64,000 nucleotides of DNA, taken from assembly GCA_033675265.1 (NCBI GenBank), contig JAUJYZ010000723.1:1-64000 (forward strand), read 5' to 3'. Shown here piece by piece: positions 9,199 through 51,092 of this stretch (the first letter of the stretch is position 1; each line of letters opens with the position of its first letter). The DNA is from Actinostola sp. cb2023 (lineage: Eukaryota > Cnidaria > Anthozoa > Actiniaria > Actinostolidae). Position numbers and translations under genes: made by a program. Below the pieces are notes generated by a model. It ran no database searches. It was not told where the DNA came from and worked only from the letters and a program-made list of their open reading frames with translations.

Positions 9199-9699
9199 CC
9201 AGTCAAGCCCAAGAGTCTCTCTTATACCCATGATGCCTTATGTCAATGTTTGTATTTTGTGTTAGCCTGTGTAGCCCGACGAAAATATGGTGGGGGAGGG
9301 GAAGATGGGTATTGGGTCAAACCCCCTCTAAACAAACCCCATTTGAGCTGCTACGTAGGCTAATAACACATTGTTTTTTTTGGTCAAGAATGGTTCAGAT
9401 GAATACCAAATTGAAGGGGTCCCTGCAAGAACAGTGTAAGTGACTTGTGATCAAACCCAAAATCTCCTTTGGAATTCAAAGAGCCTACATGAGAAATCAG
9501 TTTTTGATCAGATTCTTATAAATTAATATGACTCGTATAAAGACAATGACTATAGGTTTATTAGCTAAGCCATGACCTAGTTGAAAATTTGCTATTTCAA
9601 TAATGCATATCATTTATAAAGCACCTATGTGATTGTTGTGTTGTTGTTTTACAACAATTTAACCTGTCAAAGTGGGAAAGGCTTGGAGTTTTACCAAAA

Positions 9700-10935
9700 A
9701 TTATAGGGTAGGAAAAGATTGTGTGACAAGTCGTGACATGCTGTTGTAAGCACTGTGTCTGTACTCTTATAGACAAACCAGCCAATCAGATGGCGATATT
9801 ATAGGATAGGAAAAGAATGTGTGACAAGTCGTGACATGCTGTTGTAAGCACCGTCTGCACTCTTATTGACAATGGCAAACCAGCCAATCAGATGGCGATA
9901 TTATAGGATAGGAAAAGATTGTGTGACAAGTCGTGACATCCTGTTGTAAGCACTGTGTCTGTACTCTTATTGACAATGACAAACCAGCCAATCAGATGGC
10001 GATATTATAGGATAGGAAAAGAATGTGTGACAAGTCGTGACATGCTGTCGTAAGCACTGTGTCTGTACTCTTATTGACAATGGCAAACCAGCCAATCAGA
10101 TGGCGATATTATAGGATAGGAAAAGATTGTGTGACAAGTCGTGACATGCTGTCGTAAGCACTGTGTCTGTACTCTTATTGACAATGGCAAACCAGCCAAT
10201 CAGATGGCGATATTATAGGATAGGAAAAGATTGTGTGACAAGTCGTGACATGCTGTCGTAAGCACTGTGTCTGTACTCTTATTGACAATGGCAAACCAGC
10301 CAATCAGATGGCGATATTATAGGATAGGAAAAGATTGTGTGACAAGTCGTGACATGCTGTTGTAAGCACTGTGTGTCTGTACTCTTATTGACAATGGCAA
10401 ACCAGCCAATCAGATGGCGATATTATAGGATAGGAAAAGATTGTGTAACAAGTCGTGACATGCTGTTGTAAGCACTGTGTCTGTACTCTTATTGACAATG
10501 GCAAACCAGCCAATCAGATGGCGATATTATAGGATAGGAAAAGATTGTGTGACAAGTCGTGACATGCTGTTGTAAGCACTGTGTCTGTACTCTTATTGAC
10601 AATGACAAACCAGCCAATCAGATGTCGATATTATAGGATAGGAAAAGAATGTGTGACAAGTCGTGACATGCTGTTGTAAGCAGTGTCTGTACTCTTATTG
10701 ACAATGGCAAACCAGCCAATCAGATGGCGATATTATAGGATAGGAAAAGATTGTATGACAAGTCGTGACATGCTGTCGTAAGCACTGTGTGTCTGTACTC
10801 TTATTGACAATGGCAAACCAGCCAATCAGATGGCGATATTATAGGATAGGAAAAGAATGTGTGACAAGTCGTGACATGCTGTCGTAAGCACTGTGTCTGT
10901 ACTCTTATTGACAACGGCAAACCAGCCAATCAGAA
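9700..10935. repeat. 104-bp satellite, about 12 copies (left arm)
   Basis: The unit contains CAAACCAGCCAATCAGATGG, CGATATTATAGGATAGGAAA and GTCGTGACATGCTGT. Copies differ at a few fixed positions (AAGATTG/AAGAATG, GTTGTAAG/GTCGTAAG) and by GT dinucleotide number in CACTGTGTCTG. The mirror array at 49480-50495 has about two units fewer. Confidence 0.95.
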
Positions 10936-12952
10936 AGCTCTTGCAGCTTTACAAGTCGATTAAAAAAATTGGTTTAAATTTAGCATAATCTAAAAACAAA
11001 TAAAAAATAAATAAGAGACAACCAGGTTTACGACTCTTCCATTTATTACGTGACATTAAAAAGTTTTAAAGAGTAAGCAACATACAGGTAAAACTATATT
11101 ACAGAAAGCTGACATACTAAGTTCATTGTCTGGTACTGAATAACATCAATGGCTACAATAATCTTATGGGAATAAGCTACGAGTGAGTGGCAATAAAGTG
11201 GAGCAATGTGGAGAATATACTTACAGTCACGATCCGCTGACTGCCCGCAAGCGTACGGACTAAATAATAACAAGTATGGATGTTGACTAGAAATAGCCCC
11301 ATGTTAGAAAATGCATCACGAAAAAGTACAATTCATAATAATAATAATGAATGATAATACACACAAATATTTCAACAGTCAATGTAAAACATGGCTTTAT
11401 GGAGGGACAGTTTACTGTACATCACAGAAGAGTGTGCCCACCTTCAACGCATGCCCACAAGTCAGTATTGGACCAAAATAATCAACGATAAGAGATGTAA
11501 ATATACTGAAGGTGGCAACACTTTTTCCGAGCACTGTAAGTCAGAGAGGCGAAGAGTGGTAACACATTCACCAATCTGCTCAAAATATACTGCAAATATT
11601 ATTGACTACATTGCAAAATGCATGGTATACTGTAGAGAATATGTCAATGCATTAATGACAAAATGGCTAAAAATAAATGCAATAACTGGAATGAAAGAGC
11701 AATAGGCACAAATGCAAGATCAAACAACTCACTCAGGTTTGTCCAGTTCTTAGAGGCTCATCTACAAAGCTGTAAATTCACCGCTGTGGCTTCACTCTGC
11801 CAACCAAAGTGTTTGTCTCGTTCACTACAATGCTCAAAAAAGCAGCATTTTGTTGAATGTAAAACTACTAACAATCTTAGTTTACAATAACCCACCGCGT
11901 AGGGTGTTTCGTTCCACATTTCAGGGCTGCAGTCTGGAGAACTCTGAGGTTCTTGTGGACTGGAGAATTGAAGAAAATCAACAAGTGTTCAAAAGAACAG
12001 GTTTCATGCATGTATAAAGCCATTTGAGAGACCACAAGAGAAGATATATATGGCATAATAGGTAGTACTTTATCATTGAAGTTAATGTGCTACTTATCTG
12101 GACTTCATAACAGCCCTGAAAGGGAACATCACAAACTGATGCAATGCCAAACACAAAACACAAGCACTTTAAAACTATTGGTAGTAATTCACATTGCATA
12201 TAGAGTAAGCAAGGGCGTCATAGTACTAAAATATCATTATTATTACAATGTTCTTTCAATGATGTAGTTATTTATACGGACTGCATGCATGGTCGCTTGA
12301 CTTGTGCACTTGCTTGGAGTAGCTGTAAGACCTGTCATTCTATACATTAATTACTTCACTAACATACACCATAAAAATTAAGGTTAAAAGACATTTTAGG
12401 TCAATAAACTACAGTAGTTTTCAGCAATGCACAGGTTGGCACAAGAACTATGAACTCCACCAGAGTCTACTGTGACACACAGTAGTCCGTTCTTCAATCA
12501 GTACGACAAGGCTACGAAGATCCACCAGCAACCTACAAATGTGAAGGCCATAAAAAGTTTACACAAATAGCTAAACTCATAATTGCGCTGGAAGGAAAGA
12601 ATGACGTTAGTAGTTCAATGTGGGGAAAACGCTTTTGAACCATACGTTGGAAAATAATTAAACCACACAACATAGATATAGTCTTAGCAAATGAATTATG
12701 TTAGTACTATATTCTATAATACAGTAGTAATACATTTGGGAATAGTCATAAATGCAGAAATTTCATGGTACCTTCAGCATTGAAGCGAATCTGCAATGAA
12801 ACTTTACAGTTTGCATATACGGTATAGTAATAATACGTATGTACGTGTGTACACACAATTCAATATTGCAGTGGATAAAACTAGGTATATACAGTTGACG
12901 TGAATAATCATATTACAGTTATAGGTTAACATGAATGAAGACATATATACAT

Positions 12953-13078
12953 GGCTCCCTGCGAGAACAGAGCAAGTGACTTGTGATCAAAAACCCAAAT
13001 TCTCCTTTGAAAATTGAGGAAATCTCAATGAGAATTTAGATTTTGATCAGAGATCACTTACGTAGTTCTTGCAGGGAG
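12953..13078. mobile_element. Fold-back element with GTAAGT/CAG near its ends (left arm, copy 1)
   Basis: The ends GGCTCCCTGCGAGAACAGAG and GTAGTTCTTGCAGGGAG are inverted. The interior is two arms of ATCAAAATCTAAATTCTC type around a short loop. The same family lies at 23196-23333, with mirror copies at 37071-37208 and 47334-47458. A partial copy starts near 9417. Confidence 0.8.
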
Positions 13079-15002
13079 AACTTCAGATAGTTATTATAAT
13101 AATCTTCCAGTGACGATCTGTAAAGAATTTAACATTATTTGCAAATGTACGTACAGTATCGCAAACTTCATAATAACTACATGTCATAAAATAACTCAAT
13201 AATGTGCACAGAAAAAGCATAATGTTACGAGGCCATACGGATGTGCTGTCCCTTGCGCTGTTCCCTGGAGAAACATTCACGGTGGTATAAAACACAACTG
13301 ACGAAAATCTCATAATAATAGATGGAATTCCAAGTATATCTTACTACTGTACTAACAGGTAATACATTTTAAAAATATGAAGGTTATCAAGATTGATTCA
13401 GATAACATAAGTACAGAAACTAATGTATTTGAGGTAATATTTCTACATCAACCTCTGACCTCTGAAGGCTCAACCTCATCCCTGCCAGTGTCAATGTTAC
13501 GCCAGACACATCACGCCTCGAAGCCTGTGACTACACCTTTGGTGATCTAACACTTTGAAACAATATATGCAGCAACAAATACTGAGACTTTTTACAATGC
13601 AATATCATTGATGGTCAATTTGATAGTATATTATGTGTACAGTGATATACAATAGCACTCAATCAGGTAATTACCATAGCGACGGTGGAGTGTTTTCACA
13701 TCTAATGAAAAGACAGCATCAACAAAATGCATATTCATTCACAAGATCATTTTGCATAAGATAGAAATAACATCAGCAACAGATTGTATATTCATATACA
13801 AAGATCAAATGTTTAAAAATTACCATGTCGAGTTTTGTGTTTTCTCGTCTGCTAGTGTAACAACAGCATCAACAAAATGCATATTCATTCACAAGATCAT
13901 TTTGCATAAGATAGAAATAACATCAGCAACAAATTGTATATTCATTCACAAGATCATTTTGCATAAGATAAAAAGTTTGTCAACATCAACAACAAAAGTA
14001 TATTCATGGCACATGTGTAAGATCAAAAATTACCATTTCGAGTTTCGTGTTTTCTCTGCTCCTAATAAAGCAACAGCAGCAACACATACTGTATAATATA
14101 TCCATGGCACAAAAATACAATGATTGTGTTAAAAATTACCATGTCGAGTTTTGTGTTTTCTCGTCTCCTAGTAAACAACAGCATCAACAAAATGCATATT
14201 CAAAGTACATACATACATACATTCTTTATTAAGTACCGTATAAACAAAATACTATATATCAATCTATTTGCAACAAAGATCATTTTGGACATTAAAATTT
14301 ACCCTTCTGAACACAGCTTGCTACCTACTAGTGAATACAGTCCAGCAACAACAAAACAAACTACCATAATTATGCTTAAACTATGATTATATTAACAGTA
14401 ATATCAATAACACTATCTATTTTTGCACACATATTTGAACAGAGATATATAATTAGTATGCATTATTTTTATAATTGATAAAGAAAACAATATAACCAAG
14501 AATACAAGTTAGTCGCAAGTATAATAATAATAATAATAATAATAATTTATTTCAGGTCGATAACGTAGGGAGTGGTTACCCAATCTCCCGAGCCGAGGCT
14601 CATGTAAAAAACGCTCGAATATAATACTCATTAAAACTCTCACTGTAGGCAACATAACACATTAATTTTGCAAGAATGATAATCACAAATATTATGTAAC
14701 AAATTTGATATGATTTGTATGAATCGCTAATGATTAAGTTCAAGTACATGTTATAATATGAGATTAATGTTATAATGTAGTTATATATTTATAATAAATA
14801 TTTTAGAATACAGTAATTCAAAGGATATTCCTTCTAGTGGTCACGGAAATGGTTTCAAAATAAATCCAGCAACATAGCGTATGTATATATGTCAACTCTC
14901 TCTAGCAGGACACCCCACACTGCAATGACACCTTAATAGAATGACGACGCATTGTCTGGGCTCTAAGCACCTGTCCTTCTCTAAGACGGACACTTCTGCC
15001 TC

Positions 15003-15241
15003 ATTAGAGAGATTTAGCATCGACGAGAAATGAGAATGCGACGTTAGATGACGAATATATCACATTTGGTTATTGCGCGACTACCGTGACAACGTCACGA
15101 TGTCAAGTTCACGACAGTATTTCACTTGTTTCCACGTCCTCTTCATGACGTTGAGGATGCCAATGGTCGTTTTCACAGTTATTCGTCAGCGTGTGTGCCG
15201 TCCTCTTTCACGTCGCATCATGTTTGCTAAATCTCTCTATT
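15003..15241. mobile_element. MITE with TIR TAGAGAGATTTAGCA
   Basis: TAGAGAGATTTAGCATCGAC at the left is inverted at the right as TGCTAAATCTCTCTA. The interior is rich in ACGTCA-type words. The mirror copy is at about 45172-45413. Confidence 0.65.
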
Positions 15242-15249
15242 ATTGCAAA

Positions 15250-15376
15250 AGTAGGTGGTGGCTAAATGGGATGCCTCAAAAAGACCTTCATGTGTCAAAT
15301 CTATTGTGTTACTCCATCGTTCTATTGTTTATATTTAATGAGGTCCTTTTGAGGCACCACATTTAGTCGCCACCAC
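15250..15376. mobile_element. MITE with TIR AGGTGGTGGCTAAATGGGAT
   Basis: The arms TGGCTAAATGGGATGCCTCA and its inverted partner flank about 60 bp. The same family occurs at 62225-62362 and in the mirror at 45040-45165. Three genomic positions within one window point to an abundant family. Confidence 0.8.
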
Positions 15377-16103
15377 AAAGGTAGGATCCCACTGTACTTC
15401 AATAATCTCGCTCACAAGATTAAATTGCAGAGCCGGACACATATGCCAACAATATTACACACAATGCTAATGCTGCACCATGTATCTGTACCTCTAGCTG
15501 GCCAGCAAGAGTTTGTCCTAAGGGTGTCCAACTTAGAGAAATTTGACTATTTAAATAGACGAGATTTCAGGTTCGAAAAATGTGAATAAAAGGGGATGAA
15601 TGGGAAGTGAATGGGAATAAAAGGGGATGAATGAGTGAACGGGAAGTGGTTCATTCATGACATCAATTAATAAGAACTTACCTTTGTAAGGACGTTTATT
15701 ATTGTGGTGACTGTTGGTTGTTCTGGCCTTCCTGCGGCTGCTGTTGTTGTCCAGGTTGTCCAGGTTGTCCAGGTTGTCCAGGTTGTTGGTAGTAAAGGTT
15801 TTGTTGTTGTTTGAAGTATTGATTCCATGCTGCTGTGTAATCAGGTTGGCCACCCGCGGCTACACACAAATAAACAAGGTGTTGGATAACAGTATTTACT
15901 GTGAACCACCACCACAATCATGCATCATCATCATCACAATCATCCATCCATCATGGTCTATCATCAGCGACCACCACAATCCATCATCAATATTTTTACC
16001 ACCACAATCATCCATCATCACCACAATCAATCGTGATTCACCATGATCATCATCATCTTTTTCAACATGATTCATCATGATCATCTTCAACATTATCCAT
16101 GAC

Positions 16104-17155
16104 AGTATGTGGTTCTAATTGTGAACAGTTCTAATTGTGAACACTTTTCAGTAAAAGTGCCATTTTTATACCGTAAAGTTAAGATCGACAAAAAATATCT
16201 TACCCGAGCAAATATCGATTTATTTTCAATCATTCAATGCAATTTTGGGCTTTCTGACATTTATTCCGCGCAAAATTTCAACTTTGATTCAAAGTAAGCT
16301 GACGACTGCTGTTTACAAATTCGAATTTTAAGTGCGCCTTTAGATTCTCTGTGGCAAAGTTCGCATATTTTCTTTCTAAAAACGCAAAGTTTGGAGTTTG
16401 TTTTTATAATATGAGCTAAAAGGTAAATAATAACACTTTTCTTTACAAAAACAATAATTAGAAAAGTGTTGAAAATGAACGAGCAGCATCGGAATGAAAA
16501 ATTGTGCGTGTTTTTGCGATGTGCATGTAATTGTAAACACGCATATGCTCACGCATAACTTGGCACTTCATAACATATGTAGTTTTTGAGATATAGAGTA
16601 AAATTGCCGCTAATGTACCTGCACTGGTACAATAGCAAATATTGAGAAGGAAATATGTATAAGAAGTCTGCGTTTGTGATACAAATTTTCGCCATTTCGT
16701 TGTTAGCAATTACACGAGTGTGATGAAAGGTATGCATCAATGAACATGCGAACACGTCAGTAATTTAGCGTTGCCGTCTGACTTCACTTCGTTTTAACAT
16801 TTTTCTATCATTCGTATCGAAATAATACGAACATAAATATTGTTTTAAGACAACTTGGAACTTGTACATCGAATTGCAAGGCTAGAAACTGAGAATAATA
16901 CACAATATTAATCCATTAAAAAGCAAGCCAAAAGTGTTCACAATTACAAACATCTGTTCACAATTAGAACTACCAAAGGACATGATATAATAAAATATAT
17001 TTAGAAAAGTTCAATAATAAATACAACGAAACTTAATCACATGTTAGCTGAAGTGTAGAGCTAATTCATAGCAAAGGTTCAGGATAATCATACCATATGT
17101 TGACGAGAAATAACATCAAGTGCAAAAAGTGTTCACAATTAGAACCACATACTGT
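16104..17155. mobile_element. About 1.05-kb element with TIR CAGTATGTGGTTCTAATTGT, in an intron
   Basis: ACAGTATGTGGTTCTAATTG and the following TGAACA are inverted at 17121-17157. Subterminal copies of GTTCTAATTGTGAACA or GTTCACAATTAGAAC occur next to both ends. Internal ORFs are short and unrecognised, so it is probably non-autonomous. It lies in the intron between the last two coding exons. Mirror copy: 43258-44312. Confidence 0.75.
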
Positions 17156-17560
17156 ACCATGATCATCTTGGACATTATGTGGGTCGTTACCATCATGACT
17201 CACCATGATCATCATATGTGCCACTATTATCACTTCAAGGTGTCATATCTTAAATCAATACTTACATGAACCACCTTGAGCTGGCTGTCCAGTGGAGGCA
17301 GCTGCTGCGGCCTGTTGTTGATAATACTGTTGATAATACGCGGCCCAGGCAGCAGAGTAATCTTGAGGGGCACCTAATAGCATGCAGATGACCTTATTTT
17401 TATTTATTCACCTTTTTTTTCACCTTATCGTTACACGTTAATTTTGCACATTATAAAAGTGAGTTAATCTTACCAGAAGCCGATTGCTGACCTTGTTCAG
17501 CCTGGAAAACAAATTTAAAGTCAGGATGGATTTGATTATTGTTCCCAAGGGATCAATACA

Positions 17561-18478
17561 ATAGGACATAAAGTCCCTTCAAGATAATGCCCCCGAAACA
17601 CATACACAAATACAGACACACACTGAAAGTCAGGGAGATCGGGACACTGAGGACGATAAATATGATTAATACAATAGGACACAAAGTCCCCTTCAAGATA
17701 ATGCCCCCTTTCCAACACATACACAAATACAGACACACACTGAAAGTCAGGGAGATCGGGACACTGAGGACGATAAATATGATTAATACAATAGGACACA
17801 AAGTCCCCTTCAAGATAATGCCCCCTTTCCAACACATACATAAATACAGACACACACTGAAAGTCAGGGAGATCGGGACACTGAGGACGATAAATATGAT
17901 TAATACAATAGGACACAAAGTCCCCTTCAAGATAATGTCCCCTTTCCAACACATACATAAATACAGACACACACTGAAAGTCAGGGAGATTGGGACACTG
18001 AGGACGATAAATATGATTAATACAATAGGACACAAAGTCCCCTTCAAGATAATGCCCCCTTTCCAACACATACATAAATACAGACACACACTGAAAGTCA
18101 GGGAGATTGGGACACTGAGGACGATAAATATGATTAATACAATAGGACACAAAGTCCCCTTCAAGATAATGCCCCCTTTCCAACACATACATAAATACAG
18201 ACACACACTGAAAGTCAGGGAGATTGGGACACTGAGGACGATAAATATGATTAATACAATAGGACACAAAGTCCCCTTCAAGATAATGCCCCCTTTCCAA
18301 CACATACATAAATACAGACACACACTGAAAGTCAGGGAGATTGGGACACTGAGGACGATAAATATGATTAATACAATAGGACACAAAGTCCCCTTCAAGA
18401 TAATGCCCCCTTTCCAACACATACATAAATACAGACACACACTGAAAGTCAGGGAGATCAGGACACTGAGGACAATAA
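17561..18478. repeat. 117-bp minisatellite, about 8 copies, intronic (left arm)
   Basis: The unit includes CCCCCTTTCCAACACATACA, CTGAAAGTCAGGGAG and GACACTGAGGACGATAAAT. 117 is divisible by three and the unit has no stop in several frames, which gives long overlapping ORFs on both strands. The array ends about 60 bp before the 28-bp exon 14 of the minus-strand gene. Confidence 0.9.
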
Positions 18479-18627
18479 TTTGTTTAAATCCTGGGTGGTT
18501 CATTAATGTCCCTCTCAAGTCCATTTAGTGGTATACTATCTTGACAACGGTTATCTTAAACTCTCCACCATGGGTATTTTAATCCCTTGGAATGAGACAA
18601 AATGGATTAGGACCACTATTTCAAACC

Positions 18628-19024
18628 AGGGTTCATACTACTAGGAGATTATAAAATTCCAGGGCCCGGTTGTTCGAAAGGCGATTAGTGCTAATCCTGG
18701 ATTAGCGTCAATAGTTTTCTTAAGATTTAATCCTGGATTAGTGCTAATCGCCTTTCGAACAACCGGGCCCAGGAGTTTTCCAGGGTACAAATTTAAAAAT
18801 TCCAGGACCCTTAACTTACAAATTGCCAATTTTCTTGACTAAAACAATTATTTAACAATTTAAATTGTTCTGATATTTAACCCAATACTAATAGAAAATT
18901 CCAAGAGTTTTCCAGGAGTTGGTGTCAAAATTGCAATTTTCCAGGAGTGTTCCAGGGCCCTGGAGGAAATTTTTGAAATTCCAGGAGTTTTCCAGGAATT
19001 CCAGGAGCAGTGCGAACCCTGTCA
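18628..19024. mobile_element. CAGGGTTC...GAACCCTG element with a nested hairpin MITE
   Basis: The outer ends CCAGGGTTCATAC and GCGAACCCTGTC are inverted. The interior is full of TTCCAGGAGTTTTCCAGG-like words. A second, near-perfect hairpin (GGGCCCGGTTGTTCGAAAGG and its complement, 18660-18771) is inserted inside it. A related outer element is at 23805-24220. Confidence 0.7.
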
Positions 19025-19523
19025 CACACCCTCGCTATCTTGAACTTTTTTACTATTCTTGCGAATGTTCAAGATGGCCAGGTTCGACTGTAGTGTAGAG
19101 ACGAGAGACCACTGAGCAACTCAATGTACCCATATGTTAGCCTGGTCATTGTATACTAATAAATTAGCATAAACCATCCAGTGGTCTATCGCAAATCCTG
19201 CAATCTGATTGGTTCGCTACTAGTGGTCTATCGGCTCATAGACCCCGAGTAGATGTAAACAAACAAAATGGCGGCTTCGTCGTCACGTTTTGCTAATGTT
19301 TCAGAGGACTTTCTCCACAAATTATTGTCTGTTGCTTGTTTCTGTCATTTTCTACTGACCTACTGGATGGTTTATGCTAAAACAATTCGACTACTCGTTC
19401 TTGTTTTCTATGATGGATAGTGAACTCGGCACTATGCACCTCGTTGACTATTGTCTCGTAGAAACCTCAAACTCTTAGACTAATAAATTGTTAATTATCA
19501 GTCAATACTCTCAGTACCTTATG

Positions 19524-19622
19524 GATTATACAGTGTTTGTCTCTGACTTCTGTTTTTCTATATAGACGTTTCGGCCATTATAGAAAAACAGAAGTCAGAG
19601 ACAAACACTGTATAATCAATAA
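19524..19622. mobile_element. Near-perfect 99-bp hairpin MITE
   Basis: GGATTATACAGTGTTTGTCT and the following CTGACTTCTGTTTTTCTATA are repeated inverted around GACGTTTCGGCCATT. Mirror copy at 40785-40880. Confidence 0.85.
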
Positions 19623-20356
19623 TGTATCGTAAACCTGACTGCTACTTAAGATATACTCTCAGTACCTGTTGCCCTCCTTGTTGTGTATATTGCTGCTGTC
19701 CATACTGCTGTTGTGAGCAAAACTCTTGCTGGCCATATTGTTGTTGTTGTTGGCCATAAGGGTAACCGCTACCAGACCAAGGTTGTTGCTGTTGTTGTTG
19801 CTGCTGCTGCTGTTGTTGTTGTTGATTCCAGTTAGAATTCTGTTGACCCTGGTTCCACCTAAAGACATTGAAGGTAAAAATATTATTATTTAATATTTCT
19901 AATAATCCTGCGTAGTTATTAGCTCTTTATAGTGTGGAAAAAAAACATGAAAAATAAGGCTTGAAAGTCCTCAGTTGATAAACACATACAAAACTCTCTG
20001 TTTTTGATTCGTAATAACTTCTAGAATACTCGCAATGCAACTTTCCAAAATTGTATATTTTGAAGTACTCTTTCCGATGTCCGAAGCAATAATAATTATT
20101 GCTTAATTATTGATGTGTCTATTTTAAAGGTATGGTATGAATTCGGTCTTATAGCTCTTACTTTTGATTGAAGTTTCCGCCGCCGCCGCCGCCTCCACGG
20201 CCTCTTCCTCCTCCACGAGGCTGCAAGTGAAAAAGAAAGTTCAAACACATATTTCCACCAAGAGCAAACACTCTAATATCACCATCTTTAATGTGTTCGC
20301 ATACTTCTGTTGCTATTGCCGACCAATCAGCTTCCAACATGGCTAGATATATACAG

Positions 20357-20480
20357 CTTATTTGATGGTTTGACATATAATATGTGCAGATATTGTATGA
20401 GATGCGCGGTGCGAGGAAAAATACAAGCAATGAGTAAAATATCCGCAAGTATTATCTGTCAAACCATCAAATAAGGGGTT
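20357..20480. mobile_element. Hairpin MITE with TIR CTTATTTGATGGTTTGACA
   Basis: CTTATTTGATGGTTTGACA at 20357 pairs with its inverted copy ending 20476. It lies in the intron between the KH4 exon and the glycine/arginine exon. Mirror copy at about 39926-40046. Confidence 0.8.
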
Positions 20481-24222: not shown

Positions 24223-24409
24223 GATGCAGTTCGTACATCATTACAGAAGCAATTCCCAGTTCCGTGAGGCCTGGGAGCAAATGTTCGGTTAAAATCAGCA
24301 TCTTTGAGCTAATTTGAACTCCGCGCCATGCTCATCATAGTTTCTTTATCAAGTGAATCATATATCTCACGCATTACATGTAATCTCAAAGCTCTTACAA
24401 TACTAAGCA

Positions 24410-40584: not shown

Positions 40585-40616
<32 letters not shown>

Positions 40617-43600
40617 ACAACCTTGGTCTGGTAGCGGTTACCCTTATGGCCAACAACAACAACAATATGGCCAGCAAGAGTACTCACAACAGCAGTATGG
40701 ACAGCAGCAATATACACAACAAGGAGGGCAACAGGTACTGAGAGTATATCTTAAGTAGCAGTCAGGTTTACGATACATTATTGATTATACAGTGTTTGTC
40801 TCTGACTTCTGTTTTTCTATAATGGCCGAAACGTCTATATAGAAAAACAGAAGTCAGAGACAAACACTGTATAATCCATAAGGTACTGAGAGTAGGTACT
40901 GAGAGTAGTGACTGATAATTAACAATTTATTAGTCTAAGAGTTTGAGGTTTCTACGAGACAATAGTCAACGAGGTGCATAGTGCCGAGTTCACTATCCAT
41001 CATAGAAAACAAGAACGAGTAGTCGAATTGTTTTAGCATAAACCATCCAGTAGGTCAGTAGAAAATGACAGAAACAAGCAACAGACAATAATTTGTGGAG
41101 AAAGTCCTCTGAAACATTAGCAAAACGTGACGACGAAGCCGCCATTTTGTTTGTTTACATCTACTCGGGGTCTATGAGCTGATAGACCACTAGTAGCGAA
41201 CCAATCAGATTGCAGGATTTGCGATAGACCACTGGATGGTTTATGCTAATTTATTAGTATACAATGACCAGGCTAACATATGGGTACATTGAGTTGCTCA
41301 GTGGTCTCTCGTCTCTACACTACAGTCGAACCTGGCCATCTTGAACATTCGCAAGAATAGTAAAAAAGTTCAAGATAGCGAGGGTGTGTGACAGGGTTCG
41401 CACTGCTCCTGGAATTCCTGGAAAACTCCTGGAATTTCAAAAATTTCCTCCAGGGCCCTGGAACACTCCTGGAAAATTGCAATTTTGACACCAACTCCTG
41501 GAAAACTCTTGGAATTTTCTATTAGTATTGGGTTAAATATCAGAACAATTTAAATTGTTAAATAATTGTTTTAGTCAAGAAAATTGGCAATTTGTAAGTT
41601 AAGGGTCCTGGAATTTTTAAATTTGTACCCTGGAAAACTCCTGGGCCCGGTTGTTCGAAAGGCGATTAGCACTAATCCAGGATTAAATCTTAAGAAAACT
41701 ATTGACGCTAATCCAGGATTAGCACTAATCGCCTTTCGAACAACCGGGCCCTGGAATTTTATAATCTCCTAGTAGTATGAACCCTGGTTTGAAATAGTGG
41801 TCCTAATCCATTTTGTCTCATTCCAAGGGATTAAAATACCCATGGTGGAGAGTTTAAGATAACCGTTGTCAAGATAGTATACCACTAAATGGACTTGAGA
41901 GGGACATTAATGAACCACCCAGGATTTAAACAAATTATTGTCCTCAGTGTCCTGATCTCCCTGACTTTCAGTGTGTGTCTGTATTTATGTATGTGTTGGA
42001 AAGGGGGCATTATCTTGAAGGGGACTTTGTGTCCTATTGTATTAATCATATTTATCGTCCTCAGTGTCCCAATCTCCCTGACTTTCAGTGTGTGTCTGTA
42101 TTTATGTATGTGTTGGAAAGGGGGCATTATCTTGAAGGGGACTTTGTGTCCTATTGTATTAATCATATTTATCGTCCTCAGTGTCCCAATCTCCCTGACT
42201 TTCAGTGTGTGTCTGTATTTATGTATGTGTTGGAAAGGGGGCATTATCTTGAAGGGGACTTTGTGTCCTATTGTATTAATCATATTTATCGTCCTCAGTG
42301 TCCCAATCTCCCTGACTTTCAGTGTGTGTCTGTATTTATGTATGTGTTGGAAAGGGGGCATTATCTTGAAGGGGACTTTGTGTCCTATTGTATTAATCAT
42401 ATTATCGTCCTCAGTGTCCCAATCTCCCTGACTTTCAGTGTGTGTCTGTATTTATGTATGTGTTGGAAAGGGGACATTATCTTGAAGGGGACTTTGTGTC
42501 CTATTGTATTAATCATATTTATCGTCCTCAGTGTCCCGATCTCCCTGACTTTCAGTGTGTGTCTGTATTTATGTATGTGTTGGAAAGGGGGCATTATCTT
42601 GAAGGGGACTTTGTGTCCTATTGTATTAATCATATTTATCGTCCTCAGTGTCCCGATCTCCCTGACTTTCAGTGTGTGTCTGTATTTGTGTATGTGTTGG
42701 AAAGGGGGCATTATCTTGAAGGGGACTTTGTGTCCTATTGTATTAATCATATTTATCGTCCTCAGTGTCCCGATCTCCCTGACTTTCAGTGTGTGTCTGT
42801 ATTTGTGTATGTGTTTCGGGGGCATTATCTTGAAGGGACTTTATGTCCTATTGTATTGATCCCTTGGGAACAATAATCAAATCCATCCTGACTTTAAATT
42901 TGTTTCCAGGCTGAACAAGGTCAGCAATCGGCTTCTGGTAAGATTAACTCACTTTTATAATGTGCAAAATTAACGTGTAACGATAAGGTGAAAAAAAAGG
43001 TGAATAAATAAAAATAAGGTCATCTGCATGCTATTAGGTGCCCCTCAAGATTACTCTGCTGCCTGGGCCGCGTATTATCAACAGTATTATCAACAACAGG
43101 CCGCAGCAGCTGCCTCCACTGGACAGCCAGCTCAAGGTGGTTCATGTAAGTATTGATTTAAGATATGACACCTTGAAGTGATAATAGTGGCACATATGAT
43201 GATCATGGTGAGTCATGATGGTAACGACCCACATAATGTCCAAGATGATCATGGTACAGTATGTGGTTCTAATTGTGAACACTTTTTGCACTTGATGTTA
43301 TTTCTCGTCAACATATGGTATGATTATCCTGAACCTTTGCTATGAATTAGCTCTACACTTCAGCTAACATGTGATTAAGTTTCGTTGTATTTATTATTGA
43401 ACTTTTCTAAATATATTTTATTATATCATGTCCTTTGGTAGTTCTAATTGTGAACAGATGTTTGTAATTGTGAACACTTTTGGCTTGCTTTTTAATGGAT
43501 TAATATTGTGTATTATTCTCAGTTTCTAGCCTTGCAATTCGATGTACAAGTTCCAAGTTGTCTTAAAACAATATTTATGTTCGTATTATTTCGATACGAA

Positions 43601-44715
43601 TGATAGAAAAATGTTAAAACGAAGTGAAGTCAGACGGCAACGCTAAATTACTGACGTGTTCGCATGTTCATTGATGCATACCTTTCATCACACTCGTGTA
43701 ATTGCTAACAACGAAATGGCGAAAATTTGTATCACAAACGCAGACTTCTTATACATATTTCCTTCTCAATATTTGCTATTGTACCAGTGCAGGTACATTA
43801 GCGGCAATTTTACTCTATATCTCAAAAACTACATATGTTATGAAGTGCCAAGTTATGCGTGAGCATATGCGTGTTTACAATTACATGCACATCGCAAAAA
43901 CACGCACAATTTTTCATTCCGATGCTGCTCGTTCATTTTCAACACTTTTCTAATTATTGTTTTTGTAAAGAAAAGTGTTATTATTTACCTTTTAGCTCAT
44001 ATTATAAAAACAAACTCCAAACTTTGCGTTTTTAGAAAGAAAATATGCGAACTTTGCCACAGAGAATCTAAAGGCGCACTTAAAATTCGAATTTGTAAAC
44101 AGCAGTCGTCAGCTTACTTTGAATCAAAGTTGAAATTTTGCGCGGAATAAATGTCAGAAAGCCCAAAATTGCATTGAATGATTGAAAATAAATCGATATT
44201 TGCTCGGGTAAGATATTTTTTGTCGATCTTAACTTTACGGTATAAAAATGGCACTTTTACTGAAAAGTGTTCACAATTAGAACTGTTCACAATTAGAACC
44301 ACATACTGTCATGGATAATGTTGAAGATGATCATGATGAATCATGTTGAAAAAGATGATGATGATCATGGTGAATCACGATTGATTGTGGTGATGATGAT
44401 GGATGATTGTGGTGGTAAAAATATTGATGATGGATTGTGGTGGTCGCTGATGATAGACCATGATGGATGGATGATTGTGATGATGATGATGCATGATTGT
44501 GGTGGTGGTTCACAGTAAATACTGTTATCCAACACCTTGTTTATTTGTGTGTAGCCGCGGGTGGCCAACCTGATTACACAGCAGCATGGAATCAATACTT
44601 CAAACAACAACAAAACCTTTACTACCAACAACCTGGACAACCTGGACAACCTGGACAACCTGGACAACAACAGCAGCCGCAGGAAGGCCAGAACAACCAA
44701 CAGTCACCACAATAA
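31092..44715 (+). CDS. FUBP1: FUBP/KHSRP-like four-KH-domain protein, right-arm copy, 5'-truncated
   Basis: Sixteen exons: 31092-31153, 31235-31307, 31464-31533, 32742-32799, 34475-34553, 34660-34691, 34886-35032, 35640-35714, 36875-36980, 37654-37751, 39479-39748, 40181-40239, 40542-40734, 42910-42937, 43038-43145, 44555-44715. All junctions are GT-AG and the codon phases agree, giving about 538 residues plus stop. The order is KH1, KH2, KH3, KH4, a Gly/Arg patch, a Gln-rich stretch, and two DYxAAW tyrosine-rich repeats, which matches animal FUBP1/FUBP3/KHSRP. Proteins of this family bind single-stranded DNA or AU-rich RNA and act in transcription, splicing and mRNA decay in the nucleus and cytoplasm. 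The roughly 100 N-terminal residues expected are absent because the palindrome axis cuts the upstream intron. One extra A at 31277-31280 shifts the frame in KH1; the rest is intact. Confidence 0.95.
32212..32536. mobile_element. Inverted-end element (mirror of 27881-28205)
   Basis: TAATTGCCCTATACCACTAT at the left and ATAGTGGTATAGGGCAATTA at the right. It lies in the intron before KH1 exon 4, directly next to the LINE remnant. Confidence 0.7.
32515..32754 (-). mobile_element. LINE reverse-transcriptase C-terminal remnant (right arm)
   Basis: The minus strand encodes one continuous frame with LLRYGGRSFK, AAPKLWNSLPDSARLCENIT and FKTSIKTYLFKQVFN, the usual C-terminal end of CR1/L2-like LINE proteins. 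It is antisense to the FUBP gene. The frame reaches into FUBP exon 4 (32742-32799), so the pyrimidine tract of that acceptor appears to be antisense LINE sequence. Confidence 0.78.
33890..34474. repeat. 81-bp array made of copied exon-5 acceptor and exon start
   Basis: Seven units end in CCTCATAG at 33907, 33988, 34069, 34150, 34231, 34312 and 34394; the true acceptor ends at 34474. Spacing is 81 bp, once 82 and once 80. After each decoy acceptor comes AAGTCCATGCCAGTTGTAGC and TCCCGGC, close to the true exon start ATGTCAGTTCCAGTTGTAGC TCCCGGC. Then CAAGTCTGTATTTATTACCG and GTAGTTATAAA replace the rest of the exon. In the exon-5 frame each decoy meets a TAG after 17 codons, just at a possible donor (CCG/GTAGTT). 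Confidence 0.93.
34475..35032 (+). CDS. FUBP1: FUBP right-arm exons 5-7: KH2
   Basis: Exon 5 encodes MSVPVVAPGEQVCEMMIPAS and KVGLII. Exon 6, only 32 bp, encodes the GKGGETIKSLQ loop and helix. Exon 7 encodes ERAQCRMVMIQDGPFQNAPE, then KPLRIMGDPTRCQRGKDLVT and DLLTEKELE. The GKGG loop and the MVMIQDGP block are nearly as in vertebrate FUBP1. The acceptor of exon 5 is the last member of an 81-bp tandem array of near-identical acceptors. Confidence 0.95.
35640..37751 (+). CDS. FUBP1: FUBP right-arm exons 8-10: linker and KH3
   Basis: Exon 8 (QATPTPDFMGRRTDLQGHGG, VNVLE) is the linker. Exon 9 begins IPVPRDIVGFVIGRSGETIK and holds the GRSG loop. Exon 10 gives ENPSSPNRIATVQGSQEQLR and a closing helix ending EIIEQ. 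Exon 8 has two possible acceptors four bases apart (CTCAAG and CAAG); only the first keeps the frame. The intron between exons 9 and 10 contains the fold-back element 37071-37208. Confidence 0.93.
37071..37208. mobile_element. Fold-back element with GTAAGT near one end and TTGCAG near the other
   Basis: The TIR is TTGAAGGGCTCCCTGCAAGA. Sixteen bases further in is ACTACGTAAGTGATTTCTGA, a strong donor consensus. The right end reads TGTTATTGCAGGGAGCCC, an acceptor-like CAG. The body has two arms with ATCAAAATCTAAATTCTCCT. Because the arms are inverted, the donor-like word is present at both ends on opposite strands. Confidence 0.85.
38729..38883. mobile_element. 155-bp hairpin MITE (right arm)
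   Basis: TTCTCATAGCACATAATGCT and TGGGGGGTAATACAAAAGAA are inverted around a short centre. Mirror of 21521-21676. Confidence 0.8.
39222..39415. repeat. 33-bp G-rich minisatellite upstream of the KH4 exon (right arm)
   Basis: ATGCTACTTTATGGTGGGGT followed by GGGGTGGTATACC, about six copies. On the sense strand it has GGGGTGGGGTGG runs. It ends about 62 bp before the acceptor at 39478. The mirror copy differs by a 3-bp TAG repeat at its outer edge. Confidence 0.9.
39479..40239 (+). CDS. FUBP1: FUBP right-arm exons 11-12: KH4 and Gly/Arg patch
   Basis: Exon 11 (90 codons) opens with SRQRGGPPPKGPSPNMPGVK and carries the whole of KH4, with GLIIGKGGETIRQIIQQSGA and YFVIRGTDAQIQQAQNMI. Exon 12 encodes PRGGGRGRGGGGGGGNFNQ, an RGG-like RNA-binding patch. 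The intron between them holds a hairpin MITE (about 39926-40046). A G-rich 33-bp array ends about 60 bp before exon 11. Confidence 0.95.
40542..40734 (+). CDS. FUBP1: FUBP right-arm exon 13: Gln-rich tract
   Basis: Sixty-four codons, with a CAA/CAG run and later YGQQ-type repeats (GSGYPYGQQQQQYGQQEYSQ). It probably forms a disordered low-complexity region. The left-arm copy has one CAG fewer and one extra codon elsewhere (QEFCSQ instead of QEYSQ), so the two exons are equal in length. Such in-frame differences look like allelic variation. Confidence 0.93.
40785..40880. mobile_element. Hairpin MITE (right arm)
   Basis: GATTATACAGTGTTTGTCTC with the following TGACTTCTGTTTTTCTATA is inverted around ATGGCCGAAACGTC. 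Mirror of 19524-19622. AGGTACTGAGAGTA directly to its right is duplicated relative to the left arm. Confidence 0.85.
41640..41755. mobile_element. GGGCCCGGTTGTTCGAAAGG hairpin nested in a CAGGGTTC element
   Basis: Mirror of the nested pair at 18628-19024. The outer element spans about 41395-41790. The hairpin arms carry GCGATTAGCACTAATCCAGG. Confidence 0.75.
41932..42867. repeat. 117-bp minisatellite upstream of micro-exon 14 (right arm)
   Basis: About eight units. In gene sense each contains TTTATCGTCCTCAG and CTCCCTGACTTTCAG, both like 3' splice sites. The true acceptor at 42909 is preceded by ATCCATCCTGACTTTAAATT and TGTTTCCAG, so the array looks derived from this intron end. It stops about 43 bp upstream of the exon. 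One T is missing at about 42403 compared with the left arm. Confidence 0.9.
42910..44715 (+). CDS. FUBP1: FUBP right-arm exons 14-16: C-terminal tyrosine-rich repeats
   Basis: Exon 14 is a 28-bp micro-exon (AEQGQQSAS). Exon 15 has PQDYSAAWAAYYQQYYQQQ and a short poly-Ala. Exon 16 has GGQPDYTAAWNQYFKQQQN and four PGQ repeats, and ends at TAA 44713-44715. These correspond to the DYTKAW/DYSAAW activation motifs of FUBP proteins. A good donor (AAAG/GTAAGT, about 44732) follows 16 bp after the stop, so the 3' UTR may itself be spliced. Confidence 0.93.
43258..44312. mobile_element. About 1.05-kb element with TIR CAGTATGTGGTTCTAATTGT (right arm)
   Basis: Mirror of 16104-17155. It lies in the intron between FUBP exons 15 and 16. 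Confidence 0.75.
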
Positions 44716-45039
44716 TAAACGTCCTTACAAAGGTAAGTTCTTATTAATTGATGTCATGAATGAACCACTTCCCGTTCACTCATTCATCCCCTTTTATTCC
44801 CATTCACTTCCCATTCATCCCCTTTTATTCACATTTTTCGAACCTGAAATCTCGTCTATTTAAATAGTCAAATTTCTCTAAGTTGGACACCCCCTTAGGA
44901 CAAACTCTTGCTGGCCAGCTAGAGGTACAGATACATGGTGCAGCATTAGCATTGTGTGTAATGTTGGCATATGTGTCCGGCTCTGCAATTTAATCTTGTG
45001 AGCGAGATTATTGAAGTACAGTGGGATCCTACCTTTGTG

Positions 45040-45165
45040 GTGGCGACTAAATGTGGTGCCTCAAAAGGACCTCATTAAATATAAACAATAGAACGATGGA
45101 GTAACACAATAGATTTGACACATGAAGGTCTTTTTGAGGCATCCCATTTAGCCACCACCTACTTT
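45040..45165. mobile_element. MITE with TIR TGGCTAAATGGGATGCCTCA (right arm)
   Basis: Mirror of 15250-15376 and the same family as 62225-62362. Confidence 0.8.
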
Positions 45166-46245
45166 TGCAATAATAGAGAGATTTAGCAAACATGATGCGA
45201 CGTGAAAGAGGACGGCACACACGCTGACGAATAACTGTGAAAACGACCATTGGCATCCTCAACGTCATGAAGAGGACGTGGAAACAAGTGAAATACTGTC
45301 GTGAACTTGACATCGTGACGTTGTCACGGTAGTCGCGCAATAACCAAATGTGATATATTCGTCATCTAACGTCGCATTCTCATTTCTCGTCGATGCTAAA
45401 TCTCTCTAATGAGGCAGAAGTGTCCGTCTTAGAGAAGGACAGGTGCTTAGAGCCCAGACAATGCGTCGTCATTCTATTAAGGTGTCATTGCAGTGTGGGG
45501 TGTCCTGCTAGAGAGAGTTGACATATATACATACGCTATGTTGCTGGATTTATTTTGAAACCATTTCCGTGACCACTAGAAGGAATATCCTTTGAATTAC
45601 TGTATTCTAAAATATTTATTATAAATATATAACTACATTATAACATTAATCTCATATTATAACATGTACTTGAACTTAATCATTAGCGATTCATACAAAT
45701 CATATCAAATTTGTTACATAATATTTGTGATTATCATTCTTGCAAAATTAATGTGTTATGTTGCCTACAGTGAGAGTTTTAATGAGTATTATATTCGAGC
45801 GTTTTTTACATGAGCCTCGGCTCGGGAGATTGGGTAACCACTCCCTACGTTATCGACCTGAAATAAATTATTATTATTATTATTATTATTATACTTGCGA
45901 CTAACTTGTATTCTTGGTTATATTGTTTTCTTTATCAATTATAAAAATAATGCATACTAATTATATATCTCTGTTCAAATATGTGTGCAAAAATAGATAG
46001 TGTTATTGATATTACTGTTAATATAATCATAGTTTAAGCATAATTATGGTAGTTTGTTTTGTTGTTGCTGGACTGTATTCACTAGTAGGTAGCAAGCTGT
46101 GTTCAGAAGGGTAAATTTTAATGTCCAAAATGATCTTTGTTGCAAATAGATTGATATATAGTATTTTGTTTATACGGTACTTAATAAAGAATGTATGTAT
46201 GTATGTACTTTGAATATGCATTTTGTTGATGCTGTTGTTTACTAG

Positions 46246-46737
46246 GAGACGAGAAAACACAAAACTCGACATGGTAATTTTTAACACAATCATTGTATTT
46301 TTGTGCCATGGATATATTATACAGTATGTGTTGCTGCTGTTGCTTTATTAGGAGCAGAGAAAACACGAAACTCGAAATGGTAATTTTTGATCTTACACAT
46401 GTGCCATGAATATACTTTTGTTGTTGATGTTGACAAACTTTTTATCTTATGCAAAATGATCTTGTGAATGAATATACAATTTGTTGCTGATGTTATTTCT
46501 ATCTTATGCAAAATGATCTTGTGAATGAATATGCATTTTGTTGATGCTGTTGTTACACTAGCAGACGAGAAAACACAAAACTCGACATGGTAATTTTTAA
46601 CATTTGATCTTTGTATATGAATATACAATCTGTTGCTGATGTTATTTCTATCTTATGCAAAATGATCTTGTGAATGAATATGCATTTTGTTGATGCTGTC
46701 TTTTCATTAGATGTGAAAACACTCCACCGTCGCTATG
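46246..46737 (+). repeat. Four mini-exon-like repeats with conserved AG and GTAATT borders
   Basis: The four segments are 46246-46273, 46352-46379, 46562-46589 (28 nt each) and 46711-46737 (27 nt). Each follows a pyrimidine-rich stretch ending in TAG (such as GATGCTGTTGTTTACTAG) and is followed by GTAATT. The core is GACGAGAAAACACAAAACTC and GACATG; the last is the most diverged. They lie 3' of the FUBP stop, in FUBP sense. The mirror set is at about 13680-14170. They could be spliced non-coding mini-exons or only a dispersed repeat. Confidence 0.5.
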
Positions 46738-47333
46738 GTAATTACCTGATTGAGTGCTATTGTATATCACTGTACACATAATATACTATCAAATTGACCA
46801 TCAATGATATTGCATTGTAAAAAGTCTCAGTATTTGTTGCTGCATATATTGTTTCAAAGTGTTAGATCACCAAAGGTGTAGTCACAGGCTTCGAGGCGTG
46901 ATGTGTCTGGCGTAACATTGACACTGGCAGGGATGAGGTTGAGCCTTCAGAGGTCAGAGGTTGATGTAGAAATATTACCTCAAATACATTAGTTTCTGTA
47001 CTTATGTTATCTGAATCAATCTTGATAACCTTCATATTTTAAAAATGTATTACCTGTTAGTACAGTAGTAAGATATACTTGGAATTCCATCTATTATTAT
47101 GAGATTTTCGTCAGTTGTGTTTTATACCACCGTGAATGTTTCTCCAGGGAACAGCGCAAGGGACAGCACATCCGTATGGCCTCGTAAAATTATGCTTTTT
47201 CTGTGCACATTATTGAGTTATTTTATGACATGTAGTTATTATGAAGTTTGCGATACTGTACGTACATTTGCAAATAATGTTAAATTCTTTACAGATCGTC
47301 ACTGGAAGATTATTATAATAACTATCTGAAGTT

Positions 47334-47458
47334 CTCCCTGCAAGAACTACGTAAGTGATCTCTGATCAAAATCTAAATTCTCATTGAGATTTCCTCAATT
47401 TTCAAAGGAGAATTTGGGTTTTGATCACAAGTCACTTGCTCTGTTCTCGCAGGGAGCC
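47334..47458. mobile_element. Fold-back element with GTAAGT/CAG near its ends (right arm)
   Basis: CTCCCTGCAAGAACTACGTA at the left and TTCTCGCAGGGAGCC at the right, with inverted arms. Mirror of 12953-13078. A decayed relative lies at about 50690-50776. Confidence 0.8.
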
Positions 47459-49479
47459 ATGTATATATGTCTTCATTCATGTTAACCTATAACTGTAATA
47501 TGATTATTCACGTCAACTGTATATACCTAGTTTTATCCACTGCAATATTGAATTGTGTGTACACACGTACATACGTATTATTACTATACCGTATATGCAA
47601 ACTGTAAAGTTTCATTGCAGATTCGCTTCAATGCTGAAGGTACCATGAAATTTCTGCATTTATGACTATTCCCAAATGTATTACTACTGTATTATAGAAT
47701 ATAGTACTAACATAATTCATTTGCTAAGACTATATCTATGTTGTGTGGTTTAATTATTTTCCAACGTATGGTTCAAAAGCGTTTTCCCACATTGAACTAC
47801 TAACGTCATTCTTTCCTTCCAGCGCAATTATGAGTTTAGCTATTTGTGTAAACTTTTTATGGCCTTCACATTTGTAGGTTGCTGGTGGATCTTCGTAGCC
47901 TTGTCGTACTGATTGAAGAACGGACTACTGTGTGTCACAGTAGACTCTGGTGGAGTTCATAGTTCTTGTGCCAACCTGTGCATTGCTGAAAACTACTGTA
48001 GTTTATTGACCTAAAATGTCTTTTAACCTTAATTTTTATGGTGTATGTTAGTGAAGTAATTAATGTATAGAATGACAGGTCTTACAGCTACTCCAAGCAA
48101 GTGCACAAGTCAAGCGACCATGCATGCAGTCCGTATAAATAACTACATCATTGAAAGAACATTGTAATAATAATGATATTTTAGTACTATGACGCCCTTG
48201 CTTACTCTATATGCAATGTGAATTACTACCAATAGTTTTAAAGTGCTTGTGTTTTGTGTTTGGCATTGCATCAGTTTGTGATGTTCCCTTTCAGGGCTGT
48301 TATGAAGTCCAGATAAGTAGCACATTAACTTCAATGATAAAGTACTACCTATTATGCCATATATATCTTCTCTTGTGGTCTCTCAAATGGCTTATACATG
48401 CATGAAACCTGTTCTTTTGAACACTTGTTGATTTTCTTCAATTCTCCAGTCCACAAGAACCTCAGAGTTCTCCAGACTGCAGCCCTGAAATGTGGAACGA
48501 AACACCCTACGCGGTGGGTTATTGTAAACTAAGATTGTTAGTAGTTTTACATTCAACAAAATGCTGCTTTTTTGAGCATTGTAGTGAACGAGACAAACAC
48601 TTTGGTTGGCAGAGTGAAGCCACAGCGGTGAATTTACAGCTTTGTAGATGAGCCTCTAAGAACTGGACAAACCTGAGTGAGTTGTTTGATCTTGCATTTG
48701 TGCCTATTGCTCTTTCATTCCAGTTATTGCATTTATTTATTTTTAGCCATTTTGTCATTAATGCATTGACATATTCTCTACAGTATACCATGCATTTTGC
48801 AATGTAGTCAATAATATTTGCAGTATATTTTGAGCAGATTGGTGAATGTGTTACCACTCTTCGCCTCTCTGACTTACAGTGCTCGGAAAAGTGTTGCCAC
48901 CTTCAGTATATTTACATCTCTTATCGTTGATTATTTTGGTCCAATACTGACTTGTGGGCATGCGTTGAAGGTGGGCACACTCTTCTGTGATGTACAGTAA
49001 ACTGTCCCTCCATAAAGCCATGTTTTACATTGACTGTTGAAATATTTGTGTGTATTATCATTCATTATTATTATTATGAATTGTACTTTTTCGTGATGCA
49101 TTTTCTAACATGGGGCTATTTCTAGTCAACATCCATACTTGTTATTATTTAGTCCGTACGCTTGCGGGCAGTCAGCGGATCGTGACTGTAAGTATATTCT
49201 CCACATTGCTCCACTTTATTGCCACTCACTCGTAGCTTATTCCCATAAGATTATTGTAGCCATTGATGTTATTCAGTACCAGACAATGAACTTAGTATGT
49301 CAGCTTTCTGTAATATAGTTTTACCTGTATGTTGCTTACTCTTTAAAACTTTTTAATGTCACGTAATAAATGGAAGAATCGTAAAACCTGGTTGTCTCTT
49401 ATTTATTTGTTATTTGTTTTTAGATTATGCTAAATTTAAACCAATTTTTTTAATCGACTTGTAAAGCTGCAAGAGCTTT

Positions 49480-50495
49480 CTGATTGGCTGGTTTGCCGTT
49501 GTCAATAAGAGTACAGACACACAGTGCTTACAACAGCATGTCACGACTTGTCACACAATCTTTTCCTATCCTATAATATCGCCATCTGATTGGCTGGTTT
49601 GCCATTGTCAATAAGAGTACAGACACAGTGCTTATGACAGCATGTCACGACTTGTCACACAATCTTTTCCTATCCTATAATATCGCCATCTGATTGGCTG
49701 GTTTGCCATTGTCAATAAGAGTACAGACACAGTGCTTACGACAGCATGTCACGACTTGTCACACAATCTTTTCCTATCCTATAATATCGCCATCTGATTG
49801 GCTGGTTTGCCGTTGTCAATAAGAGTACAGACACACAGTGCTTACGACAGCATGTCACGACTTGTCACACAATCTTTTCCTATCCTATAATATCGCCATC
49901 TGATTGGCTGGTTTGCCATTGTCAATAAGAGAGTACAGACACGGTGCTTACGACAGCATGTCACGACTTGTCACACAATCTTTTCCTATCCTATAATATC
50001 GCCATCTGATTGGCTGGTTTGCCATTGTCAATAAGAGTGCAGACGGTGCTTACAACAGCATGTCACTACTTGTCACACATTCTTTTCCTATCCTATAATA
50101 TCACCATCTGATTGGCTGGTTTGCCGTTGTCAATAAGAGTACAGACACACAGTGCTTACAACAGCATGTCACGACTTGTCACATTCTTTTCCTACCCTAT
50201 AATATCGCCATCTGATTGGCTGGTTTGTCAATAAGAGTACAGACACATAGTGCTTACGACAGCATGTCACGACTTGTCACACATTCTTTTCCTATCCTAT
50301 AATATCGCCATCTGATTGGCTGGTTTGTCAATAAGAGTACAGACACATAGTGCTTACGACAGCATGTCACGACTTGTCACACATTCTTTTCCTATCCTAT
50401 AATATCGCCATCTGATTGGCTGGTTTGTCAATAAGAGTACAGACACAGTGCTTACAACAGCATGTCACGACTTGTCACACAATCTTTTCCTACCA
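49480..50495. repeat. 104-bp satellite, about 10 copies (right arm)
   Basis: Inverted counterpart of 9700-10935 with about two units fewer and several unit-level differences, for example shortened GGTTTGTCAATAAGAG units at about 50220 and 50325. Confidence 0.95.
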
Positions 50496-51092
50496 TTTAA
50501 TTTTTGGTAAAACTCCAAGCCTTTCCCACTTTGACAGGTTAAATTGTTGTACACAACAATCACATAGGTGCTTTATAAATGATATGCATTATTGAAATAG
50601 CAAATTTTCAACTAGGTCATGGCTTAGCTAATAAACCTATAGTCATTGTCTTTATACGAGTCATATTAATTTATAAGAATCTGATCAAAAACTGATTTCT
50701 CATGTAGGCTCTTTGAATTCCAAAGGAGATTTTGGGTTTTGATCACAAGTCACTTACACTGTTCTTGCAGGGACCCCTTCAATTTGGTATTCATCTGAAC
50801 CATTCTTGACCAAAAAAAACAATGTGTTATTAGCCTACGTAGCAGCTCAAATGGGGTTTGTTTAGAGGGGGTTTGACCCCAATACCCATCCTCCCCTCCC
50901 CCACCATATTTTCGTCGGGCTACACAGGCTAACACAAAATACAAACATTGACATAAGGCATCATGGGTATAAGAGAGACTCTTGGGCTTGACTGGCATTC
51001 CACAGGGAATAGAATAATAGCTGTCATGTTGGACGAGAAGCCATCGTATCGTAGTGATTTTAGGATGTGAAGAGCTAACCCCAGGGAGCAAT

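Follow-up and report, generated by a model that had tools for sequence, protein, structure and literature searches.

Natural long palindromes and hairpin-capped inverted duplications are exemplified by the Y-chromosome palindromes and by the products of breakage-fusion-bridge, and the axis of such a palindrome should be as clean as its arms and be spanned by reads in normal numbers. Mirrored sequence is also found in long reads. In a non-amplified PacBio set, palindromes were present in 0.5% of the reads according to the part of the Pacasus paper that counts them, which blames false positives and missed or missing SMRTbell adapters (PMC6218980). Fold-back reads, as treated in the relevant sections of the 2026 Breakinator survey, arise in library preparation; the second half of such a read aligns where the first does but on the other strand, frequently without any intervening sequence, and in one example 27 other reads span the fold-back place without a break (PMC12870357). 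Herein, we analysed a 41.8-kb inverted repeat in the draft genome of the sea anemone Actinostola sp. cb2023 (order Actiniaria), which consists of two mirrored arms that carry part of a FUBP-like gene. Like a natural palindrome, it has two long arms of ~99% identity around a short axis at an inverted repeat; unlike one, its axis is not as clean as its arms. It resembles the Pacasus reads, as far as these are described, in that one insert would be mirrored and the assembly harmed, and differs from them in having no adapter trace and an axis within a native hairpin (PMC6218980). The Breakinator fold-backs, which it resembles in its mapping, are reported there mainly from nanopore data (PMC12870357). 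The palindrome probably (at about 0.9, judged from the assembly sequence) arose during assembly from a fold-back PacBio read and is not a genomic feature.

The published assembly comprises 424.3 Mb in 1,596 scaffolds and was derived from a single specimen from a deep-sea vent, with heterozygosity estimated at 0.9% (PMC10803348). It was built with LoRDEC, DBG2OLC, Racon, Pilon, and Redundans from 112.37 Gb of PacBio data (library insert 20 kb) and 26.10 Gb of Illumina data, deposited together as runs SRR25988563-SRR25988567 (PMC10803348). The draft genome analysed here has 424,152,321 bases in 1,594 contigs, which corresponds to a PacBio depth of ~265-fold (112.37 Gb / 424 Mb, computed here; the table in the paper gives 280x, PMC10803348). 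The window, that is, the whole stretch of 64,000 nucleotides under study, covers positions 1-64,000 of contig C1462 (200,889 bp) and forms one end of that contig. A second contig, C620 (475,757 bp), served for comparison; its first 60 kb and 84 kb of C1462 were used. In each search of the assembly, 40 candidates were scored. The main parts of the inverted repeat are as follows.

9199..30191, forward strand, left arm of 20,993 bp, in the orientation of C620:10149 to about 31,117, 99.4% identical to C620:10149-29390
30192..50996, reverse strand, right arm (20,805 bp), 99.1% identical to C620:10861-30497
30114..30283, no strand, axis, a damaged copy of the native hairpin in the 3' part of a repeat element
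28126..30880, no strand, error-rich zone around the axis, disagreement with C620 of 10-12 (left) and 10-21 (right) events per 100 bases
30852..30874, forward strand, run of 23 C with no counterpart in C620 or the left arm

Self-BLAST of the window revealed an inverted match of 99.2% between 9,909-28,432 and 50,492-31,986; 18.5 kb at 99% was judged to need no chance model. The outer piece, 9,198-10,724 against 50,996-49,479, matched at 95.4%, mainly within a 104-bp satellite, and the inner piece, 28,433-29,522 against 31,947-30,885, at 93.2%. The core at 29,535-30,847 is a match to its own reverse complement of 80.8% only. The inverted repeat spans 9,198-50,996 with its axis at about 30,191, so that the mirror repeat described in the first-pass annotation (9199..50995, axis ~30,200) is indeed present. 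The term near-perfect applies to the outer arms only, and the innermost 1-2 kb of the arms match each other poorly. Outside the satellites, there were few substitutions between the arms up to about 28,000, followed by a steep rise inwards. The allele-like differences pointed out earlier were also recovered, namely a two-unit difference in the 104-bp satellite (11.9 vs 9.8 copies), a difference in CTG/CAG number, and an indel near 28,432, where 37 bases are absent from the left arm. These 37 bases (C620 about 29,393-29,429, L035) hold a small hairpin, GCGCCATT...AATGGCGC.

C620 carries the same sequence without a palindrome, in the order right-flank allele, arm once, axis, and then other DNA. 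Positions 1-10149 of C620 are the reverse complement of the right flank of the window, piecewise and in the same order, and the arm follows from 10149 to about 31,190. The longest self-inverted match at the axis in the first 60 kb of C620 has 165 columns (31,039-31,196). Both window arms stop matching at C620:10149, as the arms of any palindrome would stop together, and the C620 match of the right arm extends beyond 50,996 into the flank (C620:9859-11678 = 51283-49479). When two 6-kb arm stretches were searched against the assembly, each had three full-length matches, corresponding to the left arm, the right arm, and C620; the 6 kb past the axis (C620:31300-37300) had one. The arms mirror one locus that is present elsewhere in normal order. 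From the order in C620 together with these match counts, the simplest map would start at 200,889 of C1462, lead down to the arm, pass the axis element, and continue in C620 from 31.2 kb on. The 84-bp satellite in which C620 itself starts is traversed by C1462. If one haplotype instead had a genuine, recent inverted duplication, in which a hairpin break was capped by folding back and copied in vivo, the 41.8-kb palindrome would be genomic and C620 its unduplicated allele; the non-palindromic order given by C620 speaks against this.

Disagreement with C620 was counted in 250-base bins from about C620:25,900 inwards. The outer bins had 0-1.2 events per 100 bases until 29,250 in the left arm and 0-0.8 until 30,250 in the right arm, and the inner bins had 10-12 (left) and 10-20.6 (right, where the last bin includes true stem-to-stem differences). 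From C620:30251 inwards, both arms together showed 80 insertion events, 68 substitutions, and 26 deletions. The errors of raw PacBio reads are typically rich in insertions, and the profile at the axis appears to resemble that of an uncorrected PacBio read; the run of 23 C also looks like a raw-read artefact. With ~265-fold data, a real palindrome should have many crossing reads and a clean axis consensus. The consensus at the axis is not as clean as elsewhere, and this raw-read error density despite 112.37 Gb of PacBio data counts against a genuine duplication. Judging from this pattern, normal reads would have preferred C620 near the axis, and the axis of C1462 may have been built from one or a few fold-back reads.

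The axis coincides with a native structure. In C620, an imperfect hairpin lies at 31039-31196, with 79-bp arms that are 83.6% self-inverted. Its predicted folding energy is -58.7 kcal/mol, compared with a mean of -12.5 for shuffled sequences (z -15.7, 0 of 200 as good). The element that contains it is dispersed, with 81 matches from the best 40 of 250 candidate places. Seven other copies, 92-100% alike mutually and 91-98% identical to C620, align with C620 without a break across the hairpin and up to ~10 bases past it; to the same copies, the two window halves are much less similar, at 73.5-79.1% for the left and 74.2-76.2% for the right. When the window was aligned with one jump to C620 and its reverse complement, the turn fell within the 3' stem, at about C620:31140-31180. 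The best mirror point is ~20-60 bases beyond the hairpin centre; a turn at the centre (31,120) scores 17 units worse and one at C620:31,185 14 units worse, with growing losses further out. Fold-back and extension of a 3' end would be expected to leave a turning point inside the 3' stem. This evidence is suggestive at most, because the axis sequence is noisy and because the 3' stem of one hairpin copy, L007, resembles a mirrored 5' stem. A hairpin axis with a switch in the stem would also be expected from the repair of a hairpin-capped break, and to that extent the axis suits a real duplication too.

The form that such an artefact may have taken was considered in the same region. One variant is that the SMRTbell adapter at an ordinary fragment end was missed or missing and that the axis fell in the hairpin by chance. 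Missed and missing adapters are a named cause of palindromic PacBio reads in the part of the Pacasus paper concerned with their origin (PMC6218980). At 28,001-31,500, no trace of the SMRTbell adapter was found (best local score 28 of 90, compared with a mean of 29.2 and a maximum of 38 in 50 shuffles). A missed adapter was rejected, since no trace was better than in shuffled sequence; this bears on a missed adapter and not on a missing one, and the snap-back or missing-adapter type leaves no adapter sequence. The position of the axis within a strong native hairpin weighs against both forms. An adapter failure of this kind is unlikely; its share is counted within the 0.9 given above, and its practical meaning is the same. 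Because there is no adapter trace at the axis, a fragment end closed by the hairpin is the preferred form.

In this form, a 21-kb fragment would have ended inside the native hairpin of the repeat element during library preparation. Its 3' strand may have snapped back within the hairpin stem and then been elongated or sealed, so that this end was closed with no adapter. Read by the polymerase forward, around the hairpin, and back, the fragment would have given a self-mirror read of ~42 kb. At 21.0 and 20.8 kb, the arms are about as long as the 20-kb insert of the PacBio library (PMC10803348), an agreement between arm length and library that a real duplication would not call for. As described in the pertinent part of its paper, DBG2OLC patches long reads one after another and fills gaps with short-read contigs, and chimeric reads seem worse on PacBio (PMC5004134). 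It could have taken the very long mirror read as a backbone and patched other sequence (1-9,198) to the far end.

Left arm, right arm, and C620 were compared three ways, for substitutions at window 10,934-28,000 with the outer satellite excluded, and for indels at 10,934-28,150. The substitution count omits nine additional entries that reach to 28,400, each confined to the left arm and in the error zone. C620 was apart at 16 of the 23 substitution differences, the left arm at 4, and the right arm at 3; 12 of the 16 lie at 23,535-23,947, and several adjoin indels and hence are not independent. For the 59 indel differences, the left arm was apart at 27 (22 of them insertions), C620 at 18, and the right arm at 14. 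The left arm is neither a plain C620 allele nor a pure mirror of the right arm. A consensus from mixed reads of both haplotypes would yield this pattern, and three real copies would do so too. The excess of insertions among the left-arm-only indels (22/27) is closer to raw-read error than to mutation and is thus a point against real copies.

These counts bear on a join of two haplotypes head to head by the assembler without any chimeric read. As such a join would have it, the left arm goes with C620 at the 3 substitutions and 14 indels at which the right arm is apart, and also in the length of the 104-bp satellite. The join is disfavoured, as the arms share differences from C620, agreeing with each other at the 16 substitutions and 18 indels at which C620 is apart. 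The left arm does not simply represent the C620 allele, a point against two joined haplotypes, and the two arms do not each match a different allele throughout. Such a join would also need a piece crossing the axis, and the crossing piece is error-rich. We regard it as the least probable of the explanations considered. The first-pass annotation offered a recent fold-back duplication, a head-to-head join, and a chimeric fold-back long read, and held that the differences between the arms fit the first two; its set of options stands, and the evidence favours the third.

In substitutions, the arms are much closer to C620 than the flanks are. A 4-kb arm test gave 0.03% for the right arm and 0.08% for the left, compared with 1.1-3.1% in four flank pieces. 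If the duplication were real and C620 the other allele, C620 should differ from the right arm by ~1%, and 0.03% was found. Apart from this expectation, the low arm divergence does not tell a real palindrome from a false one; it would follow from local homozygosity or from a consensus pooled from the reads of all three copies.

Several observations weigh against a fold-back read. The fall in divergence from flank (1.1-3.1%) to arm (0.03-0.08%), located around C620:9,700-10,600 near the outer edge of the arm, is unexplained. L007, one of the four hairpin copies printed, has a native 3' stem that already reads like a mirrored 5' stem. The left arm sides with C620 against the right arm at 3/23 substitutions and 14/59 indels, including a 13-bp repeat, and the 104-bp satellite is similar in C620 and the left arm (1,238 vs 1,235 bp in BLAST coordinates). 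These departures of the left arm from a pure mirror are the strongest remaining point for a real duplication, under which the private micro- and minisatellite differences of the left arm, the right arm, and C620 would be those of three real copies. The outer flanks of the two arms differ, which a pure mirror read would not give and a real duplication would. The part of the DBG2OLC paper on read filtering describes a step that removes chimeric reads, which a fold-back read must have escaped; a genuine palindrome would have had nothing to escape (PMC5004134). The sections of the Breakinator survey on PacBio report almost no fold-backs in three sets (HiFi, Mas-Seq, and Iso-Seq) (PMC12870357). With the non-palindromic order in C620 and the error peak at the axis, a real duplication is nevertheless very unlikely. 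If it were true, it would be an in vivo duplication at a dispersed hairpin element, and the repeat family would be a source of new palindromes.

The outer flanks are the following two regions.

1..9198, no strand, left flank, at the contig end, a patchwork of dispersed repeats
50997..64000, no strand, right flank, corresponding to C620:10149 down to 1 in the same order

Pieces of the left flank match many contigs; 1-1,125 is 100% identical to C48, and 8,224-9,198 is 100% identical to C85 and C673. The junction with the arm is abrupt and falls in an array of a 38-bp satellite (8,224-9,198). A second full-length locus for the left flank was absent from the best 40 of 2,204-8,450 candidates in each search, and the matches of this flank to the 60 kb and 84 kb analysed of C620 and C1462, respectively, were short repeats of up to 314 bp only. 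A genuine allele that carries an insertion at 9,198, marked by the left flank, was also considered. A false join at 9,198 is plausible, because DBG2OLC patches in short-read contigs, and the fold-back reading would place the join there. The 38-bp satellite block is 100% identical to internal stretches of longer arrays on contigs C85 and C673 (L042, L043) and is cut at both ends. The pieces 1,120-1,368 and 1,364-1,980 occur in the opposite order in C179 (L057, 832-1,692) and C906. Long runs of C or G are present in the left flank as well, at 5,215-5,232 (18), 6,078-6,096 (19), and 6,178-6,190 (13), and are possible read artefacts.

The right flank contains the following features.

52,638-54,964, 63-bp satellite
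56,271-56,870, reverse strand, Bcl-2-like open reading frame (ORF)
56,921-57,602, insert of 682 bp found only in the window and not at the matching place of C620, a dispersed repeat with many copies at 96-99%
58,452-59,153, insert of about 0.7 kb found only in the window and not in C620
62,375, start of the 84-bp satellite

The insert at 56,921-57,602 looks like a young insertion polymorphism, and the differences between the right flank and C620 appear like those of two alleles. Beside the Bcl-2-like ORF, we observed that the protein QZH41_002828 (P0003) of the 475,757-bp contig joins a coiled-coil-like stretch to part of a Bcl-2-like protein. The coiled-coil-like stretch is partly encoded also at 60,419-60,919 on the reverse strand, and P0001 and the Bcl-2-like ORF of the window have an N-terminus different from that of QZH41_002828, which looks like a fused gene model.

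KH-domain exons of the gene that we take to be FUBP-like, by comparison with a FUBP query sequence, are present in the left arm, the right arm, and C620.

20667..20861, reverse strand, KH domain exon in the left arm; mirror copy at 39,542-39,736, forward strand, and C620:21623-21817, reverse strand
25386..25524, reverse strand, KH exon whose frame is shifted by an extra T near 25,474 in the left arm alone
29097..29159, reverse strand, first KH exon in the left arm, with one residue changed

The counterparts of the second of these exons are open in the right arm (34,886-35,023) and in C620 (26,350-26,487). For the first KH exon, the frame is lost in the right arm (31,114-31,290) and open in C620 (30,070-30,141). 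The disruptions in the window copies would fit sequencing error; on the exons alone, the decay of real copies fits too.

Artefacts of this type might be recognised cheaply and without reads, from an error density that rises toward the axis relative to another copy together with a further contig that has the normal order. The assembly holds three copies of part of the FUBP-like gene, and both copies in the window have apparently error-disturbed exons. This indicates that counts of genes or palindromes taken from the public assembly of this anemone would be misled by a false inverted duplication.

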